DNA from: Acidobacteriota bacterium
Lineage (GTDB): Bacteria; Acidobacteriota; Terriglobia; Terriglobales; Acidobacteriaceae
Assembly: GCA_021781495.1 (NCBI GenBank)
Contig: JAJXWS010000035.1
Span: 1 to 34,700, forward strand
DNA: 34,700 bases
Direction of reading: 5' to 3'
Positions 2,775 through 32,097 of the stretch are shown here, in pieces. Position 1 is the first letter of the stretch. Each line of letters begins with the position of its first letter. Under the pieces are notes generated by a model. That model saw only the letters and a program-made list of their open reading frames with translations, made no database searches and had not been told where the DNA came from. Made by a program: the position numbers and the translations under genes.

Positions 2775-4196
2775 ATGATCGAGTCTGCTGCCAGCCTGTC
2801 TGCATCCGTTACCCGTCGCCGTTTTCTTCAGTCCGCAGCCGCCGCTGCCGTGGTGGCCACAGGGCCCTATGCCCGCGCGCGCCGCGTAGCTGCGTCAGAC
2901 CGCATCACCCTGGGCGTGATTGGCTGGGGCATGATGGGGCCGAGCAACACCAAGTCGTTCCTGTCGTATGACGACTGCCAGGTGGTGGCCGCATGCGACA
3001 TTCACAAGGGGCACCTGCAGGCCGCGGTGGATACGGTGAACAGCCACTACGGCAACCAGGACTGCCGCGCGTATCACGATTATCGCGAGCTGCTGGCCCG
3101 CGACGATATCGACGCCGTGATGATTGCCATTCCCGACCACTGGCATGCCGTTGTGGCCACGGAAGCGGCCGCGCGCAAGAAGGACATCTACGGCGAGAAG
3201 CCCCTGGCACGGACCATCGCCGAGCAGCAGGCCATTGTGCGCGCCGTGGAGAAGAACAAGATAATCTGGCAGACCGGCTCGTGGCAGCGCTCGGTGGCGC
3301 CGTTCCGCAAGGCAGCGGAGATTGTGCGCAACGGATTGATTGGGAATGTGACCCACGTGGAGGTGGGCCTGCCGGGCGGCCATCACGACTTTCCCGGCAC
3401 GGTGCCCGCGCTGATGAAGCGGCTGGCGACTCTGCCGGACAAGATCACCAGCCCGGCGCAGATTGTGCCCGGCACCGCCGCATGGGACCTGGCCGTGACC
3501 GCGCCGCCGCCGGAGCTGGACTACGAGACGTGGATTGGGCCTTCGCGCATGGAGCCGTACATTGAGCAGCGCGTGTACCAGAACTGGCGATGGAACTACA
3601 ACACCGGCGGCGGACAGCTGCTGGACTGGATTGGCCATCACGGCGACATTGCGCACTGGGGCCTTGGCTTTGATGCTACCGGCCCATCCGAGGTGGAGGG
3701 CTTTGGCGAGTTCCCTGCCTCGAACGCAGTGTGGAACACCGCCACCAAGTACACCATTGCCTGCACGTATCGGAAGGAAGTGACCGGCTACGCCAGCGAC
3801 GTGCATATGACCATCGCGGGCGGATCCCCGGCCATCGCCATGGGCACCAAGTGGATTGGCACGGAGGGCTGGGTGTGGGTGGATCGCAGCGGCTTTGACG
3901 CCTCGAATCCGGAGTGGGCGAAAGAGGGCGCGCTGCCGGACAACCTGCGCAAAGTGCAGCTCTACGAGTCAAAGGAGCATCGCCGCAACTTCCTCGACTG
4001 CGTGCGTTCGCGCAAGCCCACCATCACGCCGGTGGAGACGGCGCACCACTCCACGATTCCGGGACACCTGGGGCTTATCTCCATGCTCACGGGCCGCAAG
4101 CTGCACTGGGATGTTGCGAAGGAGACACTGGTGAACGATGCGGCAGCCAGCGAGATGCTTACGCGGCCGTATCGCGCGCCTTATAAGCTGGCATAA
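2775..4196 (+). CDS. Tat-exported Gfo/Idh/MocA family oxidoreductase
   Basis: This is an NAD(P)-dependent sugar or inositol dehydrogenase-like protein (473 aa from the ATG at 2775; GGAGA lies about 11 nt upstream). A twin-arginine signal (TRRRFLQS, residues 13-20, then an Ala-rich stretch) predicts export as a folded, cofactor-loaded enzyme. The Rossmann nucleotide-binding motif GVIGWGMMG is at residues 47-55, and the family's EKP motif appears in IYGEKPLA, where the lysine is the usual catalytic candidate. The C-terminal region carries GGGQLLDWIGHHGDIAHW, matching the family's conserved histidine helix. Exported members of this family are abundant in Acidobacteriota and Bacteroidota and are usually tied to glycan or polyol turnover. 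No sugar transporter or glycosidase is adjacent, so the substrate cannot be inferred. An upstream TTG at 2679 is in frame but would bury the Tat signal. Confidence 0.92.
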   Translation: MIESAASLSASVTRRRFLQSAAAAAVVATGPYARARRVAASDRITLGVIGWGMMGPSNTKSFLSYDDCQVVAACDIHKGHLQAAVDTVNSHYGNQDCRAYHDYRELLARDDIDAVMIAIPDHWHAVVATEAAARKKDIYGEKPLARTIAEQQAIVRAVEKNKIIWQTGSWQRSVAPFRKAAEIVRNGLIGNVTHVEVGLPGGHHDFPGTVPALMKRLATLPDKITSPAQIVPGTAAWDLAVTAPPPELDYETWIGPSRMEPYIEQRVYQNWRWNYNTGGGQLLDWIGHHGDIAHWGLGFDATGPSEVEGFGEFPASNAVWNTATKYTIACTYRKEVTGYASDVHMTIAGGSPAIAMGTKWIGTEGWVWVDRSGFDASNPEWAKEGALPDNLRKVQLYESKEHRRNFLDCVRSRKPTITPVETAHHSTIPGHLGLISMLTGRKLHWDVAKETLVNDAAASEMLTRPYRAPYKLA

Positions 4197-4230
4197 AGGC
4201 AAATCTGCCTGGGAGGAGGTTACGCGCCGC

Positions 4231-4473
4231 ATGCTGTTGCTGCTTGGAATTGCCGCCCTTGCCTGGTCAGGCTTCAGCCTGATGACCGGCAAGGGCTACT
4301 ATCGGGGCTGCCCTCCGGGCGGCTATGACCGCAGGGAGAATCCGTTCAACTACTGGCTACCCACGATCATGATTGCGCTGCTGGGCACGTGGCTGGTGCT
4401 GGGGTCGTTCGGCATGCTTCCGCGGGTGGCGGGCGTGAACCTGAACACCTGCCCGCCGTCCCGCACGCAGTAG
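4231..4473 (+). CDS. Small two-helix membrane protein of unknown function
   Basis: The protein has 80 aa, starting at the ATG at 4231. A strong Shine-Dalgarno, GGAGGAGGT, lies at 4212-4220 with about 10 nt spacing, which decides this start over the open frame from 4138 that overlaps the preceding gene. Two hydrophobic segments are visible, about residues 1-19 and about residues 43-65 (YWLPTIMIALLG…). A short polar loop between them contains GCPPGGYDRREN. I do not recognise the family. It lies 34 bp after the oxidoreductase, probably on the same transcript, and converges on the permease genes. Confidence 0.72.
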   Translation: MLLLLGIAALAWSGFSLMTGKGYYRGCPPGGYDRRENPFNYWLPTIMIALLGTWLVLGSFGMLPRVAGVNLNTCPPSRTQ

Positions 4474-4506
4474 CATGCGGCAAAGCATGCATCGAGTGAC
4501 GCATGC
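4473..4506. repeat. Three GCATGC palindromes in a convergent intergenic gap
   Basis: GCATGC occurs at 4473-4478, 4485-4490 and 4501-4506 between two convergent genes. The first two can pair as a 6-bp stem with a 6-nt loop. There is no T-tract, so a terminator role is uncertain. Confidence 0.3.
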
Positions 4507-4512
4507 CCGGCG

Positions 4513-5757
4513 CTATTCGTAGCGCAGCGCCTCAATGGGGTCCAGGTTGGCGGCGCGAATTGCGGGGATCATGCCGCTGACCAGCCCGGTCACGGCCAGG
4601 ATGCCCGTGGCGACCACGATGGATAGCGGCGAGATCTTCAGGTAGATATCCGCGGCTTCGGCATTCAGCGCAATCTGGCTGTAGAACGGAATGCGCCCGA
4701 CGAGCACGGAGACGAGATAGGCCAGCGCGATGCCGCTGGCGCCGCCCACGCCGGTGATGACGAACGCCTCCGCCAGAAACTGCAGCAGGATGTGACGCCG
4801 TCGCGCGCCCAGCGCTTTCTCCACGCCGATTTCGCGCGTGCGCTGCTGCACCGCCACCAGCATGATGTTCATGAGGCCGATGCCCGCAATGCCCAGCGTT
4901 AACGCGCCCACCAGCGACAGCAGCACCTGAAGCGCGATGGTGAGAATCTGGAACTGGTGCAGCTGCGTCATCAGGTTGGCAACGTAGATGGCGTTGTGAT
5001 CGGCGGGGCGGAAGTGATGCGCGGCCGCGAGCGTCTCGCGCATGTCTTTCTCCACGAGCTGATAGTTGCCGCGATAGTTGAGCCAGATGCCGTCAAGGTA
5101 CTTGGTGTCCTTCAGGTCGCTCATGGTGCTGAAGGGGATGTAGATCTGGCGGTTGCGGTCGTTGTTCTCGCCGCCCTCCTGCATCTTGGGGCTGAGCACG
5201 CCCACGATGGTGAAGAGCACGCCGTTGAGCCGGATGGTCTGGCCCACGGCCCATCCGCCGGAGAAGAGCTTGGCCTTCGACTCAGAGCCGATGACGCAGA
5301 CGTGCGCGCGCTGCTCGTCCTCGGCGCCGTTGAAGAAGCGGCCCTGCCCTACACCCAGGCTCCATATCTCGTTGAAGTAGGAACGGACGCCATGCACGGT
5401 CCACGTGTAGCTATGCAGATCGTTCTGCACGGTCACGTCCTTCATCACGTCCGGCGAGACGTGCATGACGCCGGGTATGGTGTTGGCGAGCCGGTCCACA
5501 TCGTCCTGCGTGAAGCGCACCTGCACACCGGATTTTTCTCCGCCGGCCTGCTGGCTGGTGCGTCCCGGAAAGGTGCCGATGATGTTGGTACCCCACTCGG
5601 CAAAGATGGCCTCAATGGCGCGGCTGAAGCCTGCTCCGTAGGCCAGCAGCAGCACGACGGTGGCGATGCCCCAGGCCATGCCGCCCATGGTGATGGCTGT
5701 GCGGCGGCGGTTGTAGATCATCGCCTCCCATGCCTGGCCCCAGATGTCTTTGAACAT
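4513..5757 (-). CDS. MacB/FtsX-type ABC transporter permease (second of pair)
   Basis: The protein has 414 aa, starting at the ATG at 5757; AAAGGA sits about 6 nt upstream on the coding strand, and the open frame upstream to 5799 is not needed. The layout is that of MacB-type permeases: an N-terminal TM helix (about residues 20-42), a periplasmic MacB_PCD domain of about 220 residues, then three C-terminal TM helices forming the FtsX domain. The cytosolic coupling segment QQRTREIGVEKALGARRRHIL and the terminal LDPIEALRYE are family signatures. Such proteins use ATP-driven movements in the periplasm to export or extract substrates (macrolides, lipoproteins, toxins). It follows a paralogous permease by 54 bp, and no ATPase or membrane-fusion gene is adjacent. 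The substrate is unknown. Confidence 0.92.
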   Translation of the reverse strand: MFKDIWGQAWEAMIYNRRRTAITMGGMAWGIATVVLLLAYGAGFSRAIEAIFAEWGTNIIGTFPGRTSQQAGGEKSGVQVRFTQDDVDRLANTIPGVMHVSPDVMKDVTVQNDLHSYTWTVHGVRSYFNEIWSLGVGQGRFFNGAEDEQRAHVCVIGSESKAKLFSGGWAVGQTIRLNGVLFTIVGVLSPKMQEGGENNDRNRQIYIPFSTMSDLKDTKYLDGIWLNYRGNYQLVEKDMRETLAAAHHFRPADHNAIYVANLMTQLHQFQILTIALQVLLSLVGALTLGIAGIGLMNIMLVAVQQRTREIGVEKALGARRRHILLQFLAEAFVITGVGGASGIALAYLVSVLVGRIPFYSQIALNAEAADIYLKISPLSIVVATGILAVTGLVSGMIPAIRAANLDPIEALRYE

Positions 5758-5811
5758 GGCCGATCCTTTCGCTTCCGCTGTTCCGTTTCCGCCGTGCACG
5801 GCTCCTAAAAA

Positions 5812-7065
5812 CTACTCGCGGCGCAGCGCCTCAATGGGGTCAAGGGCCGCGGCTTTGCTGGCCGGATACAGGCCCGCCGCGATTCCGCTGAGCACCAGTG
5901 AGCCCAGCGCCAGCGCGGCCGACCACGGCACCAGCCGCGGCGGATCCCAGCCGGGCATCTTGCCTGTGAGGGCCTCCTGCAGCAGCGCCATGAATCCGGC
6001 GGAGAGCGCGATTCCGATGATTCCGCTGAGGCCGGTGAGCAGCAGGCCCTCCCAGAAGAACTGCGACAGGATGGAGCGGCGGGTGGCGCCCAGAGCCTTC
6101 AGCAGGCCGATCTCGCTGGTGCGCTCTGTGACAGCTACCAGCATGATGTTGATGATGCCCACCGCGCCCAGCCCGAGCGTGACAATACCCACGCCGCCGA
6201 GGAAGATATCCATCGCTGTAAAGATGGCACCGATCATCTTCTCTTCCTGGATGGTGTCCCACTCGTTGAAGGCATCTTTCATGGCGGGGTCAAAGCCGTG
6301 GCGGCTGGCGATGACGCGATGCACCGCCGCCAGGGCGGCGTCGATCTCGCCCTTGGTGGCGGGCTGATACTGGATGGAGGTCAGCGCGTCCTGAGCGATG
6401 TTGTCGCCCTTGAGCGGGAACAGGCGCTGCATGGTCGTGACGGGAACGTAGACCTTCTGGTCGTCATAGTCGTTGTTGCCGCGGCTGATTTTGCCCACGG
6501 AGCCGACCACGGTGAAAGCCGTGCCGTTGATGGTGATGGTTTCGCCCAGCATGGGCCGGCCGTTGAACAAGAGCGTTGAGGCTTTGAAGCCAAGCACGGC
6601 AACCCGCCGCTCGTTGGCAACGTCCGCATCGTCAATAAAGCGGCCGGAGGCCATGGGGATAAAGCGCACGGCGGTGTAGTTGGGCTCCACGCCAGTGACG
6701 TGGCTCGACGTATTGGCCCACTGGCTGACTTCATACAGGTCTGACCGGCCGAGCTCGACCGTGACCGCGCGCAGCTCGCGCAACTGGCGCATGGCGTTGG
6801 CATCGCCCATGGTGAGCTGATACGGACGCATGCCGGTGTGCTGGTTGGCCACGGCGGGAATGGTGCCGTTGAACATCATCACCAGATCATTGCCCAGGGT
6901 GGCCAGCTGCCGGTGCTGGCCGCTGCGGAAGCCCTCGCCGAGCCCCACCAGCACCAGCAGCGAGCCTACCCCCCAGGCAATCCCGAACATGGTAAGAAAA
7001 CTGCGCAGCTTGTTTGCGGCGATGGCGCGAAATACCTGACCGAGCGTGTCTGTGAAGGTTTGCAT
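5812..7065 (-). CDS. MacB/FtsX-type ABC transporter permease (first of pair)
   Basis: The protein has 417 aa from the ATG at 7065 (…MQTFTDTLGQVF…). The frame stays open upstream to 7305, but that part overlaps the dehydrogenase gene in another frame and has no permease character. A GGAG lies 13 nt before the ATG. The N-terminal TM (about residues 20-45, FLTMFGIAWGVGSLLVLVG) is followed by a periplasmic domain and three C-terminal TMs. The coupling segment TERTSEIGLLKALGATRRSIL and terminal LDPIEALRRE match the downstream paralogue. Together they could form a heterodimeric permease. No ABC ATPase lies beside the pair: upstream is a 3-hydroxyacyl-CoA dehydrogenase and downstream is a convergent gene. 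The ATPase must come from elsewhere in the genome. Confidence 0.92.
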   Translation of the reverse strand: MQTFTDTLGQVFRAIAANKLRSFLTMFGIAWGVGSLLVLVGLGEGFRSGQHRQLATLGNDLVMMFNGTIPAVANQHTGMRPYQLTMGDANAMRQLRELRAVTVELGRSDLYEVSQWANTSSHVTGVEPNYTAVRFIPMASGRFIDDADVANERRVAVLGFKASTLLFNGRPMLGETITINGTAFTVVGSVGKISRGNNDYDDQKVYVPVTTMQRLFPLKGDNIAQDALTSIQYQPATKGEIDAALAAVHRVIASRHGFDPAMKDAFNEWDTIQEEKMIGAIFTAMDIFLGGVGIVTLGLGAVGIINIMLVAVTERTSEIGLLKALGATRRSILSQFFWEGLLLTGLSGIIGIALSAGFMALLQEALTGKMPGWDPPRLVPWSAALALGSLVLSGIAAGLYPASKAAALDPIEALRRE

Positions 7066-24554: not shown

Positions 24555-25484
24555 TTATCGTGGCATGTCGCGATGCAGCGCCTTTACCTTGTAACCGGCC
24601 TTGCGCAGTCGCTTGCTCATCTCCTCGGCCATCATCACGCTGCGGTGCTGCCCGCCGGTGCATCCAAAGGCCACGGTCAGATAACTCTTGCCTTCTTCCA
24701 CATAGTGCGGCAGTAAGTACAGCATAAGTTCCGTCACTTTCCCAAGAAACTCTTCCGTCTGCGGAAAGCCGCGCACATAGGCGGCAACCTTGGGATCCTT
24801 GCCGGTCTTCCTGCGAAACTCCGGCACAAAGTGCGGATTGGGCAGGAAGCGCACGTCGAACACCAGGTCCGCATCCAGCGGCACGCCGTTCTTGAAGCCG
24901 AAGCTGAGGCAGGAGACCAGCAGACGTTGCTGCTTCTTCTCCTGCCCAAAGCGCGACTGGATATGCGCGCGCAACTCGTGCACGTTGAAGTTGGAGGTAT
25001 CGACCAGCGTGTCGGCCACATTGCGAATCGGGTCCAGCAACTGGCGCTCTTCCACAATGGAGCGCTCCACCGTCTCCGATCGCCGCAGCGGGTGCGGACG
25101 GCGCGTCTCAGAGTAGCGCCGCACCAGCACCGCATCCTGCGCGTCCAGAAAGACCACCCGCGTGGGCAGCAGTTGCTTTACGCGCTTCAGGATGTCCGGC
25201 AGGCGGTCCAGCGTCTGCCCTTCGCGAATGTCCACCACGATGGCCGCGCGCTGAATCTCGCGCGACTTGCCCACCAGAGTTGCGAACTCCGTCAGCAACT
25301 CCAGCGGCAGATTATCGACGGCGTGATAACCAAGGTCTTCAAAGGCCTTCAGCGCGGAAGCTTTTCCCGCACCTGAGATGCCGGTTACAATCACCAGCTC
25401 TTTCGCTGGCTCACTTGTCTCTTTGTTCACAGCGGCGGCCGATCGCCGGGAGGCCGTTCGGGGCGCCGGTCTTGGGGGCGTCAT
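24555..25484 (-). CDS. rapZ: RNase adapter RapZ / YvcJ-family nucleotide-binding protein
   Basis: In E. coli RapZ guides RNase E to the sRNA GlmZ and so controls glucosamine-6-phosphate synthesis for the envelope. The protein has 309 aa from the ATG at 25484; the first 28 residues are a non-conserved basic/Ser-rich tail. The N-domain P-loop is GISGAGKAS (residues 35-43): the usual Ser/Thr right after Lys41 is Ala, with Ser next. DLGYHAVDNLP follows. The C-domain has SCLSFGFKNGVP, DVRFLPNPHFVPE, FGCTGGQHRSV and a terminal HRDMPR, all diagnostic. It is the last gene of the rpoN-hpf block, but a terminator lies between hpf and it, so it may have its own promoter. Confidence 0.95.
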   Translation of the reverse strand: MTPPRPAPRTASRRSAAAVNKETSEPAKELVIVTGISGAGKASALKAFEDLGYHAVDNLPLELLTEFATLVGKSREIQRAAIVVDIREGQTLDRLPDILKRVKQLLPTRVVFLDAQDAVLVRRYSETRRPHPLRRSETVERSIVEERQLLDPIRNVADTLVDTSNFNVHELRAHIQSRFGQEKKQQRLLVSCLSFGFKNGVPLDADLVFDVRFLPNPHFVPEFRRKTGKDPKVAAYVRGFPQTEEFLGKVTELMLYLLPHYVEEGKSYLTVAFGCTGGQHRSVMMAEEMSKRLRKAGYKVKALHRDMPR

Positions 25485-25581
25485 GCGCCCATCGTACACT
25501 GTCGCGCCATCTCTGGGGAAAGCGGTGGCGCGTGCAGGCCCCGGCGCATGGCAACAAAGCACCCGGCGCGGCCACGCACGC

Positions 25582-25619
25582 AAAAAACTGAGGGCACGGC
25601 TGTGCGCCGTACCCTCAGT
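25582..25619 (-). terminator. Rho-independent terminator after hpf
   Basis: On the minus strand ACTGAGGG-t-ACGGC pairs with GCCGT-g-CCCTCAGT around a five-base loop, followed directly by TTTTTT. It begins about 20 bp after the hpf stop. Confidence 0.9.
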
Positions 25620-25639
25620 GCATTGCAGCAACGCAGTTG

Positions 25640-26269
25640 CTAGGGAACTTCAACAAGCTCCATCTGGCCGTCGCGCCGGCGATGGAGGACATACAGGTTG
25701 CCCGCCTGGTTGCGGAAGACCAGCAGGTCGCGGTCGCGGAACTCGGTATCCTTCACGGCCTGCTCGATGGTCATGGGAGCCATGGCTATGGCTTCGCCGC
25801 TCTTCAGGATATGCGGCTCCACAATGGCCGGTTCCGCCGGGAAGGTGTGAGCCGGAATTGCGGTCTTGACCTTTCCCCGGGTAAGCCGTCCATTGCCGGC
25901 TGCCTCCTGCGGCTCCGCGGCGCGCGCCTTGGGCCGGGAGACAGGCGGCGCGGTCAGAACTTTTTCCGCCTTGGGCAGGCGCTTGCGCTCGTAGTTGCGG
26001 TCGCGGTAGCGCTGTGCCTGGTGCTCAGCATGGGCGACAGCCTGACGCAGTGCGGCTTCCAGACTGTCGGCCTCGCCTGCTGCTACAAACGTCTGGTGAC
26101 GCGCCTTTATGGTAAGCTCTGCAATCTGCAAATGCCTCTGCGCTCGAAAGATAATGCTGGCGCGGGCAGTTTTGCCCAGAATACGGGCGATGCGTTCCAT
26201 TCCCTCTTCGGCCTGCTCTCGCAGCGATTTCGGGACTCTTACTTTCCTGGCGGTGAACTCCACTTCCAT
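25640..26269 (-). CDS. hpf: Long-form ribosome hibernation promoting factor (HPF)
   Basis: HPF binds the 30S subunit and makes inactive 100S dimers in slow growth. The protein has 209 aa from the ATG at 26269, set by GGAGG 7 nt upstream. The N-domain (residues 1-100) has the S30AE pattern EFTARKVRVPKSLREQAEEGMERI…AELTIK. A linker of about 60 residues rich in Pro, Ala and Lys follows. The C-domain (about 163-207) reads MTIEQAVKDTEF…LLVFRNQAGNLYVLHRRRDGQMELVEV, matching the dimerising tail of long HPF. The E. coli protein at this genomic place is the short form without this tail. Its own promoter candidate (TGCTATAGA) lies about 60 bp upstream. Confidence 0.92.
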   Translation of the reverse strand: MEVEFTARKVRVPKSLREQAEEGMERIARILGKTARASIIFRAQRHLQIAELTIKARHQTFVAAGEADSLEAALRQAVAHAEHQAQRYRDRNYERKRLPKAEKVLTAPPVSRPKARAAEPQEAAGNGRLTRGKVKTAIPAHTFPAEPAIVEPHILKSGEAIAMAPMTIEQAVKDTEFRDRDLLVFRNQAGNLYVLHRRRDGQMELVEVP

Positions 26270-26326
26270 GGTCAGCCTCCGCACTACGTGTTTGCAACGC
26301 GGCTTCCCAGCCGTTGGACTCTGGAT

Positions 26327-26413: not shown

Positions 26414-28012
26414 CTAGCGCTTCCGCCGCTGATGGGTGGACGGGATGTTCATGTCCTCGCGATACTTGGCCACCGTGCGCCGCGTAATCTGGATCCCCTG
26501 GGTCTGCAGCATCGCGGCCAGGTGGTCGTCGGTCAGGGGACGGCGTGGGTCCTCGTCCTCGATCAGCTTGCGGACCTTGCGCTTCAGCACCAGCAGCGGG
26601 GTATCTGCACCCTCCGGCCCGGCGGCACCCTCTGAGAAGAAGAACCGCAGCTCGATTACGCCCTGCGGGGTATGCGCATACTTGTTGGCCACCGCGCGGC
26701 TCACCGTGGAGGGGTGCACGCCGATCTCCTCGGCCACCTCCTTGATCATCATGGGATGCAGCGCCTCAATGCCAAGCTCCAGAAAGTCCTGCTGGCGGCG
26801 CACAATCACTTCGCACGTGCGCAGAATCGTGCTCTTGCGCTGGGCGATGTTGCGCATGAGCTGAAGCGCCGACCGGAACCGCTCCTTGACGTACTCCTTG
26901 ACCTCTTTGTCCGTGCCCTCTGAGACGAGCATCCGCCGGTAGCGCTGGCTGAGCCGCAGGCTCGGCAGGTCCTCTTCGTTCATGCTCACAACCCACTCGC
27001 CGCCGCGCTTGGTGAACACCACGTCCGGCTCAATCAGCCTTGTCTGCTCGCGGTTGTAGAGGCGTCCCGGGCGCGGGTCCAGCGTGCGGATGAACTCGAC
27101 GCCCGCCTCCGCCTCCGCCGGCGTCACCTGCACGGCCCGGGCCAGATCCTTGGCGTCGCGCTTCAGCAGCAGGGGCAGGTGGTGGTCCACGATATGCGCC
27201 GCCACTTCCATGCTGCGGCGCCGCTGGTCCAGCTGAACCTCCGCCTCAGCGTGGAGGACGGAATGCGAGCCATCGGCCGTCTTCCCGGAAGTATGGCGCG
27301 CATCCAGCTGCGCCAGTTCGTGCTGCTGGGCGGCAATCTGGATCAGCAGGCACTCGCGCAGATCGCGCGCGCCCACCCCGGCCGGGTCCAGGTGCTGCAC
27401 CAGGTCAATGCCCCTTCGCACCAGGAGCAGCGCAGCGTCCTTGTCCAGTCCGCTGTTCTCTGAAAACTGCTGGAACACCTCCGCCAGTTCCTCATCGCTG
27501 GCCGCCAGGTAACCATCTTCGTTCAGGTTGCCGATGACGAACTCTGCCGCCTGCGACAGGGATTCATCCAGCGTCAGAGCTCCCAGCTGCCACGCCAGAT
27601 GATCGGACAGCGTTGTGGGCTGCGAGAGAAAGTTCTCAAACGAGGGCCTTTCGTTCTCCTCATACTCGGGCTGTGTGCGATATCCGGGGTCCAGGTACTC
27701 CTGAAAGTAGGAACCAAAGTCGATCTCGTTGAACGGATCCTTGGGGAGAGCCGCTGGTTCTTCCGCTCCACCCTCCAGATGCTCCAGCCGCTCTTCGCGC
27801 TCTTGCCGCTCCTGACGGCCGGCCACCTCATCCAGCATCGGAACCGATTCGTCAATCTCTTCCAGGACGGGGTTTTCCACCATCTCGGCATCGATCATCT
27901 CCTTCAGTTCGACCTTGTTGAGCGCAAGCACGCTCACCATCTGCATCAGGCCCGGTGTAAGGACCTGGCGTTGCGCGACCTTCAGGTTCAGTTTTGGTTG
28001 CAGCAGCGCCAT
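26414..28012 (-). CDS. rpoN: RNA polymerase sigma-54 factor
   Basis: Sigma-54 directs polymerase to -24/-12 promoters and needs AAA+ enhancer-binding activators. The protein has 532 aa. Region I (residues 1-50) begins MALLQPKLNLKVAQRQVLTPGLM and is Gln/Leu-rich; an acidic region II follows (about 55-115). The core-binding domain includes LAWQLGALTLDE and GVGARDLRECLLIQI. The DNA-binding part has EVAEEIGVHPSTVSRAVANKY, and the RpoN box is TRRTVAKYRE (about 510-519), differing from the usual ARRTVAKYRE only in its first residue. It ends in a basic tail. It lies between lptB and hpf as in Proteobacteria. The ATG at 28012 lacks a clear Shine-Dalgarno. Confidence 0.97.
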   Translation of the reverse strand: MALLQPKLNLKVAQRQVLTPGLMQMVSVLALNKVELKEMIDAEMVENPVLEEIDESVPMLDEVAGRQERQEREERLEHLEGGAEEPAALPKDPFNEIDFGSYFQEYLDPGYRTQPEYEENERPSFENFLSQPTTLSDHLAWQLGALTLDESLSQAAEFVIGNLNEDGYLAASDEELAEVFQQFSENSGLDKDAALLLVRRGIDLVQHLDPAGVGARDLRECLLIQIAAQQHELAQLDARHTSGKTADGSHSVLHAEAEVQLDQRRRSMEVAAHIVDHHLPLLLKRDAKDLARAVQVTPAEAEAGVEFIRTLDPRPGRLYNREQTRLIEPDVVFTKRGGEWVVSMNEEDLPSLRLSQRYRRMLVSEGTDKEVKEYVKERFRSALQLMRNIAQRKSTILRTCEVIVRRQQDFLELGIEALHPMMIKEVAEEIGVHPSTVSRAVANKYAHTPQGVIELRFFFSEGAAGPEGADTPLLVLKRKVRKLIEDEDPRRPLTDDHLAAMLQTQGIQITRRTVAKYREDMNIPSTHQRRKR

Positions 28013-28235: not shown

Positions 28236-28964
28236 CTAGCCAAGCGAAAATCCTTCTCCCAGATAGACTCGGCGAACCTCCACGTCGTTACCGAGCTCGT
28301 GCGGCGTTCCGGTGCGAAAAATACGGCCTTCCGCAATGATATACGCCCGGTCCGTTACGCTCAGCGTCTCGCGGACGTTATGGTCCGTGATCAGGATGCC
28401 GATACCGCTGGCCTTCAGGTCAAAGATAATCTTCTGCAGCTCCAGCACGGCAATGGGGTCAATGCCGCTGAAGGGCTCGTCGAGCAGGATGAAGTTGGGC
28501 TGAATGCACAGGCTGCGGGCAATCTCCACGCGACGCCGCTCGCCGCCGGAGAGCGCGTACCCGCGCGTGGTGCGGATGTGCGCCAGGTTCAGCTGGTTAA
28601 TCAGCTTCTCAGCGCGCGCGCGCCGCTCGCGCAGGCCCAGCGGCTGCGCCTCCAGCACGGCCAGAATATTTTCTTCCACCGTGAGCTTGCGAAACACCGA
28701 GGGCTCCTGCGGCAGATAGCTGATGCCGAAGTTGCGCGCCCGCAGATACATGGGCACCCGCGTAATGTCGGTGTCGTCCACCATCACGCGGCCCGTCTCA
28801 GGAGCCACCAGGCCCACAATCATGTAGAAGCTCGTGGTCTTGCCCGCGCCATTCGGCCCCAGCAGCCCTACAACCTCTCCACGCGAAATCCGCAGGCTCA
28901 CTCCGCGGACCACCTGCCGCCCCTTGTATGTCTTGCCGATTCCTTCGGCGATCAATGTTTCCAT
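28236..28964 (-). CDS. lptB: LPS export ABC transporter ATPase LptB
   Basis: LptB powers extraction of LPS from the inner membrane through LptFG. The protein has 242 aa from the ATG at 28964, with GGAG 6 nt before it. Walker A is GPNGAGKTT (residues 36-44), the Q-loop is in [18 protein letters not shown], the signature is LSGGERRR (138-145), Walker B is [13 protein letters not shown] (158-170) and the switch histidine is in [10 protein letters not shown] (His195). The [15 protein letters not shown] string is characteristic of LptB rather than other ABC ATPases. It starts 23 bp after the lptC-lptA fusion, so they are surely co-transcribed. lptF and lptG are not in the window. Confidence 0.97.
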
Positions 28965-28987
28965 CAAGCTCTCCGGCGCTCTCGCGG

Positions 28988-31468
28988 TTACCGTGGCGCC
29001 GTTGTTTCCGTTACGGTCTTCCTGCCGTCACCTTCGACTCTGACGCTATCATCGTGGCTATTGAAAATCAAAGCCTGCCCCGTCACCGTGCCCTTGGCGG
29101 GATCAATCAACCGGGGCGGCGCGGCGGCTGTTCCGGTCAGCACAAACTCTCCGGAATCATTTGAGTAGACAAGCTTCTCTCCGGTGCCGCGCCGGCCCTG
29201 CGACGACACCTGCACGTGTCCGCTGGCGGTCATGGTGTCCACCTCCGCCGCGGCTCCGTTCCGGCCCGCGTGGTTGCCGGGGGGCAGCAGCGTCAGCTCC
29301 ACCTGGTTGGAAACCGTCGTGGAATCCGTGGTTTCCGCGGTCACGCCGCCCGTTACGCCGGCTCGCATCACGGCCTTGCGCTCCGCAGCCGAGTACTTCA
29401 GCTCCCCGCCATGCATGCGCACCACAGACGGCACCTCGGGCCTGCCCGGCCGCTGCGGCGCGGGAGCCGTCGCGCTCACCAGCACCACCCGCACCGGGTC
29501 CGCCGCGCTGGCCGTGCTCGCCACCAGCGTTTGCCGGGGCCGGTTCAGAACAATCACCGGAGCGGCAATCGAATTGGCCTGCTGCCACAGCCGCGCCTGC
29601 CCCTGGAAGATCACTTCGCCGCTGGACTGCCTCAGCTCCGCCTGGGCTGCAATGGCATGCGCGGGCCCCTGCCCGCCAAGGTCCGCCATGTGCTCGGAGG
29701 CGGGCGTGCTCCTGCGCGGCGCCTCATTCCCGTTCTGCTCGCCGAGCCAGGTCGCCTTCACATTGCCCCGGGCAAACGCATCGCCGGAAGCCTGCGAGAC
29801 GTCCACCTTGTCTGCCGCCAGTTGCAGGCCGCCGTCCTCCACCCGCGGATTGCCGATCAGGTGCAGCCACACTCCCGCGCCCTCGTAGTCGGCGCGCTGC
29901 GCCGTGGCGTGCATGGCCGCCGGAGCCGGCTGGCCCGCCCGCGCTGCCGGCTGCTGCACCAGCACCACGTTGCCCTGCACCATTGCCGACTGAATCTGCG
30001 CGGAGCCCTCCGCTCCTTTGGGCCTGCTGCCGGTGGGCTTGCTGCCGGCTGTCCGGCCCGCCGCCGGTGCAAAGTTGGCCACCAGCCGGTCGCCACTCAT
30101 GGTCTGGCGGCTGCCCGCGGACGTCGTCTCCTCCATGCTGGCGTGCCCGGTGCCTGTAATCGCAGTCAACTCGGAGCCCGCGCCGAACGTCCCCGTCACC
30201 TCGTCGGCCGACATCCGCGACGGCATCACCGGCCCGTTGCCGCGACGGCTCTCGCCCGTCACCACCACGCCGCCCGTGCCGTGGATGCTCGCCAGTTCCA
30301 CATGCCCACGCCCGGCGCTGCGAAACTCCAAATCCGCCAGCGGAGACTGCCACGTCCTGCGCGCCCAGGTTTGCACGCCGCCTGCCGTGCCCTGTTCCTC
30401 GCTGCTGATCTGCACGCCGCGCTCCAGATGCGCCTGGCGCAGCACGCCGTCGCTGCTGAACTGCAGTTGCATGGTGGGAGCCGCGCCGTGCAGCTTCTGG
30501 CCGTTGGCGTCGGAGTCCATCGTCACGCCGCCGCTCAGCAGTCCCTTCTGCGGCTGGTTGTGGACATCAAACGCAAGTGTGCCCTCCGGGGCCGTCATCC
30601 TGCCGCCCGCCGCCGTCTGCAGTTGAATGCCGTTCGTGGCGTCCAGCTGCTGCGCGGAGCCATCGTCGCGAAACAGAATCGTCGCCTCCTGCGCCTGCGC
30701 CGTACCGCCCGGATAACTGGCCCTGGCCGCGGACAGGCGGCAGATCTGGTCGCCGCGCTCAAACACCGCATGCTCGGCCAGCAACTCCATCGGCTGCCCG
30801 CCGCGCTGCATCTTCAGCTGCACAGCCCGGTTCAGCACCAGGTGGCCTTCCTCGGCTTTGTACAAGGCGCCCACCGCGCTGCCGCTGCCCTGCGCCAGGC
30901 GAAACTCCACCCGCTCGTCGGTCGTCGCCACGCCGCTGTTCTGGTTAAACACCAGGCCGCTGGTCTCCACATGCACCTCGCCGCTCGCGGCTGTCCGCGC
31001 CGCCGCAGCCAGCGGATGCTGCTTGTCCTCCAGCGCATGGCTGGGCGTTGCCTTGGGTGCAATGGCGGGAGCCACTCCGGGGCGCGTCAGCGTGATCTCC
31101 ACCGGCCCCGCAGCCCTGGCGATGCCCGCCTTGGTGTCGTACTCAAACTCACTGCCTTCAATACGATCCACGCGGCTGCCGTCTTCGCCGTACAGCTCAA
31201 TCTGCACATCGTGCAGCAGCGCCTTGCCTTCCTTCAGCTGCACCACCTTGGAGGCGTGAATCTTGAACAGCGTATGCCCGCCGTGCGCCTGCGTATACGT
31301 CAGCCCGCTGAAGTCCTGCTGGATATTCCCCGCCAGCCTGCTGGGCAGATCCTTGCGGCTGAACGGGCTCTTCCACTTGCCAATGGCCAGGAACACGGCA
31401 ATCGCCACCACCAGCAGCACGCCTGCCGCCAGAATCAGTGTTCGCAGCCGTTCAATGGTGAGTCGCAC
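28988..31468 (-). CDS. LptC-LptA (OstA) fusion protein of the LPS export bridge
   Basis: The protein has 826 aa from a GTG at 31468. One N-terminal TM helix (about residues 8-30, [20 protein letters not shown]) anchors it. The LptC-like part (about 40-220) has [24 protein letters not shown] and [21 protein letters not shown]. The rest is periplasmic beta-rich sequence with LptA/OstA repeat features: [41 protein letters not shown] and, at the C-terminus, [10 protein letters not shown]…[17 protein letters not shown]…[15 protein letters not shown]. coli uses separate LptC (191 aa) and LptA (185 aa); here both roles appear on one chain with extra repeats, which could build much of the bridge. lptB follows by 23 bp; an unknown gene precedes by 3 bp. 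Fused forms are probably widespread in this phylum. Confidence 0.88.
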
Positions 31469-31471
31469 GCG

Positions 31472-32083
31472 TCAGTTCCCCAGGCCGAGCCGTGCCGTCA
31501 GCCGTTGCGCCAGGCTCTCGCCCATCTCGCTCCACAGCAGGCGCGCCGTCGCGCCGGAACCCTTCTCGATCGCAGCCGTCAGTTCCACCAGTTGCCGCAC
31601 ATTCTCTTCCACGTGCCGGGCGGCGGTGGCGTCCAGTTCCATCTCTTCGTCGAGAAACGCCGCGTCCGTGCCGAACTCCACGCGGATGTGCCCGTCCTGT
31701 TCGTAGGCGCCCTCGTCAAACAGCGGGCCAAAGCCGATGACGCGCACCAGCCGCGGCTCGCGCGCCCAGCGCGGGTCCAGATTCGGCGCCGTCTCCAGCT
31801 CCCACAGGCTCCATCCAATCTGGAACTCGTAGGCGTAGTCCTCGTGCAGCAGCTCCAGCGCGTCTTCCACGGCCTGCCGCGGCTCCGCACCGCGCTCGCC
31901 CCGGCCATACACGCGCTGAAACACCGGCGACTCGCTCCAGTTAACGGGCCACACCGTGGCGGCATACACGCGAGCATCGCCACCATGCACGGCAAACGCT
32001 CCCAGCACGGCGGTCAGCTTGTCGGCCAGTCCCGCCAGCCGCAGATTCGGATACCAAAGACTCAGATACAGTGCGTCAGACAT
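31472..32083 (-). CDS. Conserved-looking protein of unknown function, first gene of the lpt-rpoN block
   Basis: The protein has 203 aa starting MSDALYLSLWYPNLRLAGLAD. I do not recognise a family. It is acidic and probably soluble: no signal peptide and no TM. Visible features are an aromatic-rich stretch near residues 85-95 (EFQIGWSLWELE), RVIGFGPLFDEGAYEQDGHIRVEFG around 115-140, and an amphipathic helical C-terminus (VRQLVELTAAIEKGSGATARLLWSEMG). It ends 3 bp before the lptC-lptA GTG, so the two are very likely translated from one mRNA, which argues for a role near LPS export or for regulation of it. TACAAT 8 nt before the ATG and no real Shine-Dalgarno suggest a leaderless transcript. Confidence 0.8.
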   Translation of the reverse strand: MSDALYLSLWYPNLRLAGLADKLTAVLGAFAVHGGDARVYAATVWPVNWSESPVFQRVYGRGERGAEPRQAVEDALELLHEDYAYEFQIGWSLWELETAPNLDPRWAREPRLVRVIGFGPLFDEGAYEQDGHIRVEFGTDAAFLDEEMELDATAARHVEENVRQLVELTAAIEKGSGATARLLWSEMGESLAQRLTARLGLGN

Positions 32084-32091
32084 CTCTCTTG

Positions 32092-32097
32092 ATTGTA
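32092..32097 (-). promoter_or_regulatory. Candidate -10 element heading the lptCA-lptB-rpoN block (TACAAT)
   Basis: On the minus strand TACAAT lies 8 nt before the ATG at 32083. The -35 match 17 bp upstream is weak (TCTGCA). If used, the mRNA would start at or within two bases of the ATG. Confidence 0.4.

Follow-up and report, generated by a model that had tools for sequence, protein, structure and literature searches.

Predicted fusion of LptC with LptA, and of LptF with LptG, in the lipopolysaccharide exporter of Acidobacteriota

Lipopolysaccharide (LPS) export by the Lpt machinery has been described in bacteria in which LptC and LptA are distinct polypeptides. In E. coli, separate proteins meet by strand pairing, both where LptC contacts LptA and where one LptA contacts the next (PMC5575297). 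LptC and LptA are also separate in diderm Firmicutes, where each has about 200 aa (PMC5007114), and in Borrelia burgdorferi (PMC10353723). The interaction between LptC and LptA is the target of thanatin in E. coli (PMC7237710). According to a 2022 survey, Acidobacteria are "apparently lacking" lptF and lptG (PMC8871954). No fusion of LptC with LptA or of LptF with LptG was found in the openly licensed PMC papers searched; a description elsewhere is possible.

In this work, profile searches, structure prediction and comparative genomics were applied to a window of 34,700 nucleotides (positions 1 to 34,700 of contig JAJXWS010000035.1) from an Acidobacteriota metagenome-assembled genome (MAG; 3.6 Mb, 197 contigs, 95.75% complete). 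The window contains a frame of 826 aa, named here lptCA, whose predicted features are collected in Table 1. Its GTG start lies three bases past the upstream stop codon, and its own stop lies about 20 bases 5' of the lptB start.

Table 1. Features of the lptCA cluster (positions in the window) and examples of fused LptFG chains (positions in the named locus).
Feature	Coordinates	Strand	Basis and remarks
lptCA, 826-aa LptC–LptA bridge protein (predicted)	28988..31468	−	GTG start 31468; stop 28988-28990
N-terminal transmembrane anchor, residues 5-33	31370..31456	−	AF2 helix; alignment with LptC 6mit_C, TM helix included, begins at residue 11
LptC-type jellyroll, residues about 45-222	30803..31336	−	Pfam LptC 160-217; 3my2 and 6mit_C matches
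Jellyroll 2, residues about 223-366	30371..30802	−	4q35 and 4b54 matches to separately folded model
Jellyroll 3, LptA-like, residues about 367-512	29933..30370	−	2r1a_D, 4uu4 and 8gak matches
Jellyroll 4, LptA-like, residues about 513-667	29468..29932	−	Pfam LptD_N 539-646; 2r19
Jellyroll 5 / C-terminal bridge end, residues about 668-821	29006..29467	−	LptD_N match 29054-29356; 2r1a_H
lptB, LPS-exporter ATPase	28236..28967	−	TIGR04406 352.7 bits, cut-off 240; probable ATG start 28964
rpoN	26414..28012	−	Named from translation; homologue adjoins lptB in most families tested
hpf (ribosome hibernation factor)	25640..26284	−	Named from translation; homologues in cluster
rapZ	24555..25631	−	Named from translation; true start probably inside frame; homologues in cluster
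LptFG fused chains, about 760–820 aa	e.g. L150 (244-2583 +); L147, L167, L172, L182, L186, L192		Genomes G028, G118, others

Two Pfam families match the 826-aa chain above their curated cut-offs: the OstA/LptA model LptD_N (48.3 bits, E 1.3e-12, three stretches, the best at residues 539-646) and LptC (27.9 bits, cut-off 21, E 2e-6, residues 160-217). The outer-membrane barrel of LptD (PF04453) was not found in this protein by the Pfam scan. The host chain narrowly missed the equivalog cut-offs of the NCBIfam models for LptA (59.9 bits, cut-off 71.7) and LptC (33.1 bits, cut-off 38), and a relative from another Acidobacteriota family exceeded both in a single chain (124.9 bits for LptA and 85.6 bits for LptC). 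A free LptA would be soluble in the periplasm and carry its own signal peptide; the host instead encodes a single frame with an N-terminal anchor, whose product contains LptA-type units and is not free LptA. In E. coli, LptC and LptA together amount to roughly 376 aa. A sequence-only reading of this DNA had described a transmembrane anchor, an LptC-like region and several OstA/LptA segments in one frame of about twice the summed length of LptC and LptA, immediately upstream of lptB; the Pfam matches, the structure model, the chain length and the TIGR04406 score of the downstream gene all agree with this description.

An AlphaFold2 (AF2) model of the chain, built from an alignment of 65 homologues, reached a mean pLDDT of 86.3 and a pTM of 0.74, with beta structure extending from residue 49 to 821 behind the N-terminal helix (residues 5–33). 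In the structure searches, LptC matched residues 11–229, and the jellyrolls of LptA and of the LptD N-terminal domain matched residues 221–771. For the LptC region, 6mit_C gave Z 13.9 with an rmsd of 22 Å over residues 11–229, a value that probably stems from differing placement of the anchor, as the anchor-free 3my2 gave 3.0 Å (Z 11.3, residues 67-222). The middle of the chain, unrecognised by Pfam, was folded alone (residues 215–545, pLDDT 92.8) and matched the periplasmic jellyroll of LptD (4q35, Z 13.1, rmsd 3.8, residues 221-437), LptC (4b54, Z 10.2, rmsd 2.2 Å, residues 254-418), LptA (2r1a_D, Z 11.0, rmsd 2.1 Å, residues 367–545) and LptH (4uu4, Z 11.3, rmsd 2.0). On the full model, the region of jellyroll 3 matched 8gak (Z 10.8), and two LptA structures matched further along the chain: 2r19_B (Z 9.0, rmsd 1.9 Å, residues 516–667) and 2r1a_H (Z 13.4, rmsd 1.7 Å, residues 598–756). 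The rmsd of the LptA and LptH matches was 1.7–2.1 over 124–130 residues. A search of solved structures with the single sequence gave no match, whereas the alignment profile did match, with LptA 2r19 at E 5.8e-8, and a profile self-comparison of the chain revealed significant internal repeats (E 2e-20). As the chain repeats without a break, the match ranges overlap; set one after another, they would in our reading of them correspond to about five jellyrolls, one LptC and four LptA equivalents. The expectation from sequence that an LptA-type jellyroll lies within residues 300-826 was thus borne out in the model, with good LptA matches.

Other folds were also matched over residues 170–530. The OspA, Morn1 and porin matches were regarded as generic meander-sheet similarity, mostly poorer than the Lpt matches in both Z and rmsd; the exception was Morn1, with Z 11.6 on the full model, and this match was gone when the middle was folded alone. 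Because OspA is a single-layer sheet, its matches, although of lower Z, make it uncertain how closed the groove is in mid-chain. TamB or AsmA kinship was absent among the structure-search matches.

Homology and gene context make a role as LPS bridge very likely, and we regard it as highly probable that the lptCA product forms, as a single chain, the Lpt exporter's bridge across the periplasm; membrane topology, LPS carriage, the presence of one chain per bridge and docking on LptD are inferred. The N-terminal helix would anchor LptCA in the inner membrane, and LptB with LptFG would lift LPS out of that membrane into the first jellyroll, in the role of LptC. The remaining jellyroll, of about four LptA units, would take the role of LptA, its greased groove leading LPS to the N-terminal domain of LptD. 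With C and A covalently joined, each bridge would be one anchored strand of fixed size, free of LptC–LptA and LptA–LptA joints, although the fused chain might itself oligomerise, or two chains might share one bridge. In E. coli, an assembly of one LptA with LptC, LptFG and LptDE has an estimated length of 16 nm, whereas the periplasm measures 21 nm (PMC5575297); with its roughly four LptA equivalents, the fused chain would span further, and without joints. The contact between LptCA and LptD is probably an ordinary jellyroll-to-jellyroll joint, because in the host LptD the barrel is still preceded by about 130 OstA-like residues, a stretch with weak profile support. The earlier claim that the fusion changes how the bridge meets LptD is weakened by this stretch.

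A single-chain bridge could also act as a molecular ruler, in which a fixed number of strands sets the reach from inner to outer membrane without oligomerisation. This reading extends the one-chain explanation and is not an alternative to it; we consider its chances evenly balanced. In the host family, whose members share 28–64% identity, the strands comprise 487.7 ± 8.5 residues (CV 1.7%) and loops vary by 12.5%. A bridge of fixed length predicts this pattern, but so does ordinary structural constraint, and since conservation is always higher in strands than in loops, the statistic is a weak one. The length of the single frame, moreover, differs between families and is not one constant across the phylum, with extremes of about 505 and 1350 aa. 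How many LptA units the E. coli bridge contains is described as unknown (PMC5575297); in the fused system, a coded length would settle this count. That the chain sets the bridge length without oligomerisation, as proposed from the sequence, is plausible and consistent with the constant strand content.

Alternatively, proteolysis of the exported chain might release soluble LptA-like pieces from an anchored LptC, which would restore a conventional working machine. Cutting could occur in poorly modelled or irregular loops at about residues 128–151, 467–491 and 575–602, but beta structure in the AF2 model runs on over the boundary between LptC and jellyroll 2 near residue 222 with no linker, and we regard processing of this kind as improbable.

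Among the Lpt partners of LptCA, LptB, LptD (contig C43, barrel included) and LptE (contig C149) are present in the host genome. As for stand-alone lptA or lptC genes, which the sequence-only reading had named as the test of a fusion, none were found in the host genome, where OstA and LptC family matches are confined to the 826-aa frame. Since this MAG is fragmented and also lacks lptFG, the absence of separate lptA and lptC rests on relatives too: among the OstA matches listed for host-family genomes, every one compared falls inside the fused frame. Neither lptF nor lptG was found in the host MAG, though they occur in 99/100 family genomes, and their absence is most likely an assembly gap.

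On the reverse strand, the cluster runs in the order 203-aa ORF, lptCA, lptB, rpoN, hpf, rapZ, so that lptCA occupies the slot held in E. coli by lptC-lptA, before lptB-rpoN-hpf-rapZ. The 203-aa ORF (31472-32083, −), which ends just 5' of lptCA, has no Pfam match; in many of the closest loci, though not in more distant ones, a homologue of it precedes lptCA.

OstA repeats are also found in LptD, and proteins of the AsmA/TamB type are long anchored lipid grooves; the lptCA product could therefore be a general OstA-repeat envelope protein, such as a scaffold or a carrier of another lipid, and not an LPS bridge. We consider this very improbable, given that the LptC match is correctly placed with its transmembrane anchor, lptB adjoins in 73/77 host-family loci, the host genome yielded no other LptA or LptC, and the best structural matches are nearly all Lpt proteins. 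Run-through of the frame, misassembly or a chance open frame in GC-rich DNA has a negligible probability, for although long antisense open frames exist in this DNA, e.g. 29216..32092(+), the protein was recovered from all 150 host-family genomes searched (66 genera), and 79 of 80 named loci carry it in a single frame, which rules out an artefact. The antisense frame just mentioned, 958 aa long and opposite lptCA, was judged a GC-rich shadow frame.

The fusion of LptC and LptA in one frame is confirmed as general in Acidobacteriota. In the host family, the frames that hold full-length matches are nearly all about 750–920 aa long. The 80 named loci come from a scan of named genomes that returned close relatives only (Terracidiphilus, Edaphobacter, Granulicella, Terriglobus and others), and a few of their frames are clipped by contig ends; the 77 loci counted for lptB are those in which it was found, and the 73 have it within 400 bases downstream. 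At one locus (L071) the lptCA frame is split in two, probably through a MAG sequence error or as a decayed copy. Phylum-wide, 265 of 297 Acidobacteriota genomes match a profile of the lptCA protein, usually as a single frame that fills the lptC-lptA slot; all 23 members of the phylum-wide alignment carry an OstA match, and 20 of them have LptC in the same chain. In regions from other families, lptB stands directly downstream in 18/20, and rpoN and hpf usually come next. Where profile scores are weak, in outlier families, the position directly before lptB is still mostly taken by one anchored frame, about 505–720 aa long. In family f22, one locus (L247) has a BNR/sortilin-type protein of about 1100 aa (3014-6349, −) between an OstA-bearing frame and lptB; this family (L245, L246, L247) has three to four LptF/G matches, which are weak.

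A second fusion was recognised in the membrane components. The LptF/LptG family (PF03739) was detected in 99/100 host-family genomes, typically as two matches per frame of about 770–850 aa, and in 148/149 genomes of the phylum, mostly with two matches per frame. In a 780-aa chain of a same-genus relative, the N-terminal half scored 372 bits as LptF (cut-off 230) and the C-terminal half 411 bits as LptG (cut-off 240). Seven chains from other Acidobacteriota genomes, with about 11–13 hydrophobic segments, likewise exceeded the NCBIfam equivalog cut-offs of both LptF and LptG; examples of fused chains are given in Table 1. As both cut-offs are exceeded in single chains, LptF and LptG are, by these sequence matches, fused across Acidobacteriota. 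The absence of lptF and lptG reported earlier (PMC8871954) is contradicted by a fused gene that is nearly universal in the phylum, and surveys expecting separate genes can misread Acidobacteria in this way. The Acidobacteriota Lpt machine comprises five proteins (B, FG, CA, D, E), not seven. A broader proposal, to which we give an even chance, is that in this phylum-wide five-protein LPS exporter the covalent links fix both the bridge stoichiometry and the arrangement of F and G, with a gene-encoded, lineage-specific bridge length.

LptCA and LptFG are thus known Lpt machinery in fused form, and the combination of both fusions is the most interesting part. For the E. coli bridge, both the count of LptA units and the need for oligomerisation are unsettled. 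A natural one-chain bridge of LptC and about four LptA units would fix the stoichiometry, and its length could be altered by genetics, which makes the question testable; bridge length may be encoded in the gene rather than set by the number of stacked copies. Thanatin would find no LptC–LptA joint in LptCA.

LptC (E. coli YrbK; 3my2, 6mit_C) shares with LptCA the single N-terminal transmembrane helix and the adjoining jellyroll (Z 11–14); LptC stops after this one jellyroll, whereas LptCA continues for about 600 residues. The jellyroll of LptA (E. coli YhbN; 2r19, 2r1a) and of Pseudomonas LptH (4uu4) is the one repeated in LptCA, but LptA is a separate soluble protein of one jellyroll that stacks head to tail, and LptCA is predicted to hold about four such units, covalently linked and membrane-anchored. 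The N-terminal periplasmic domain of LptD (4q35) belongs to the same jellyroll family as LptCA residues 221–437 (Z 13); LptD has an outer-membrane barrel and a gene of its own, whereas LptCA has no barrel. The systems of diderm Firmicutes (PMC5007114) and Borrelia burgdorferi (PMC10353723) follow the same transport logic with the same protein families as the LptCA system; LptC and LptA are two proteins there and one 826-aa protein here.
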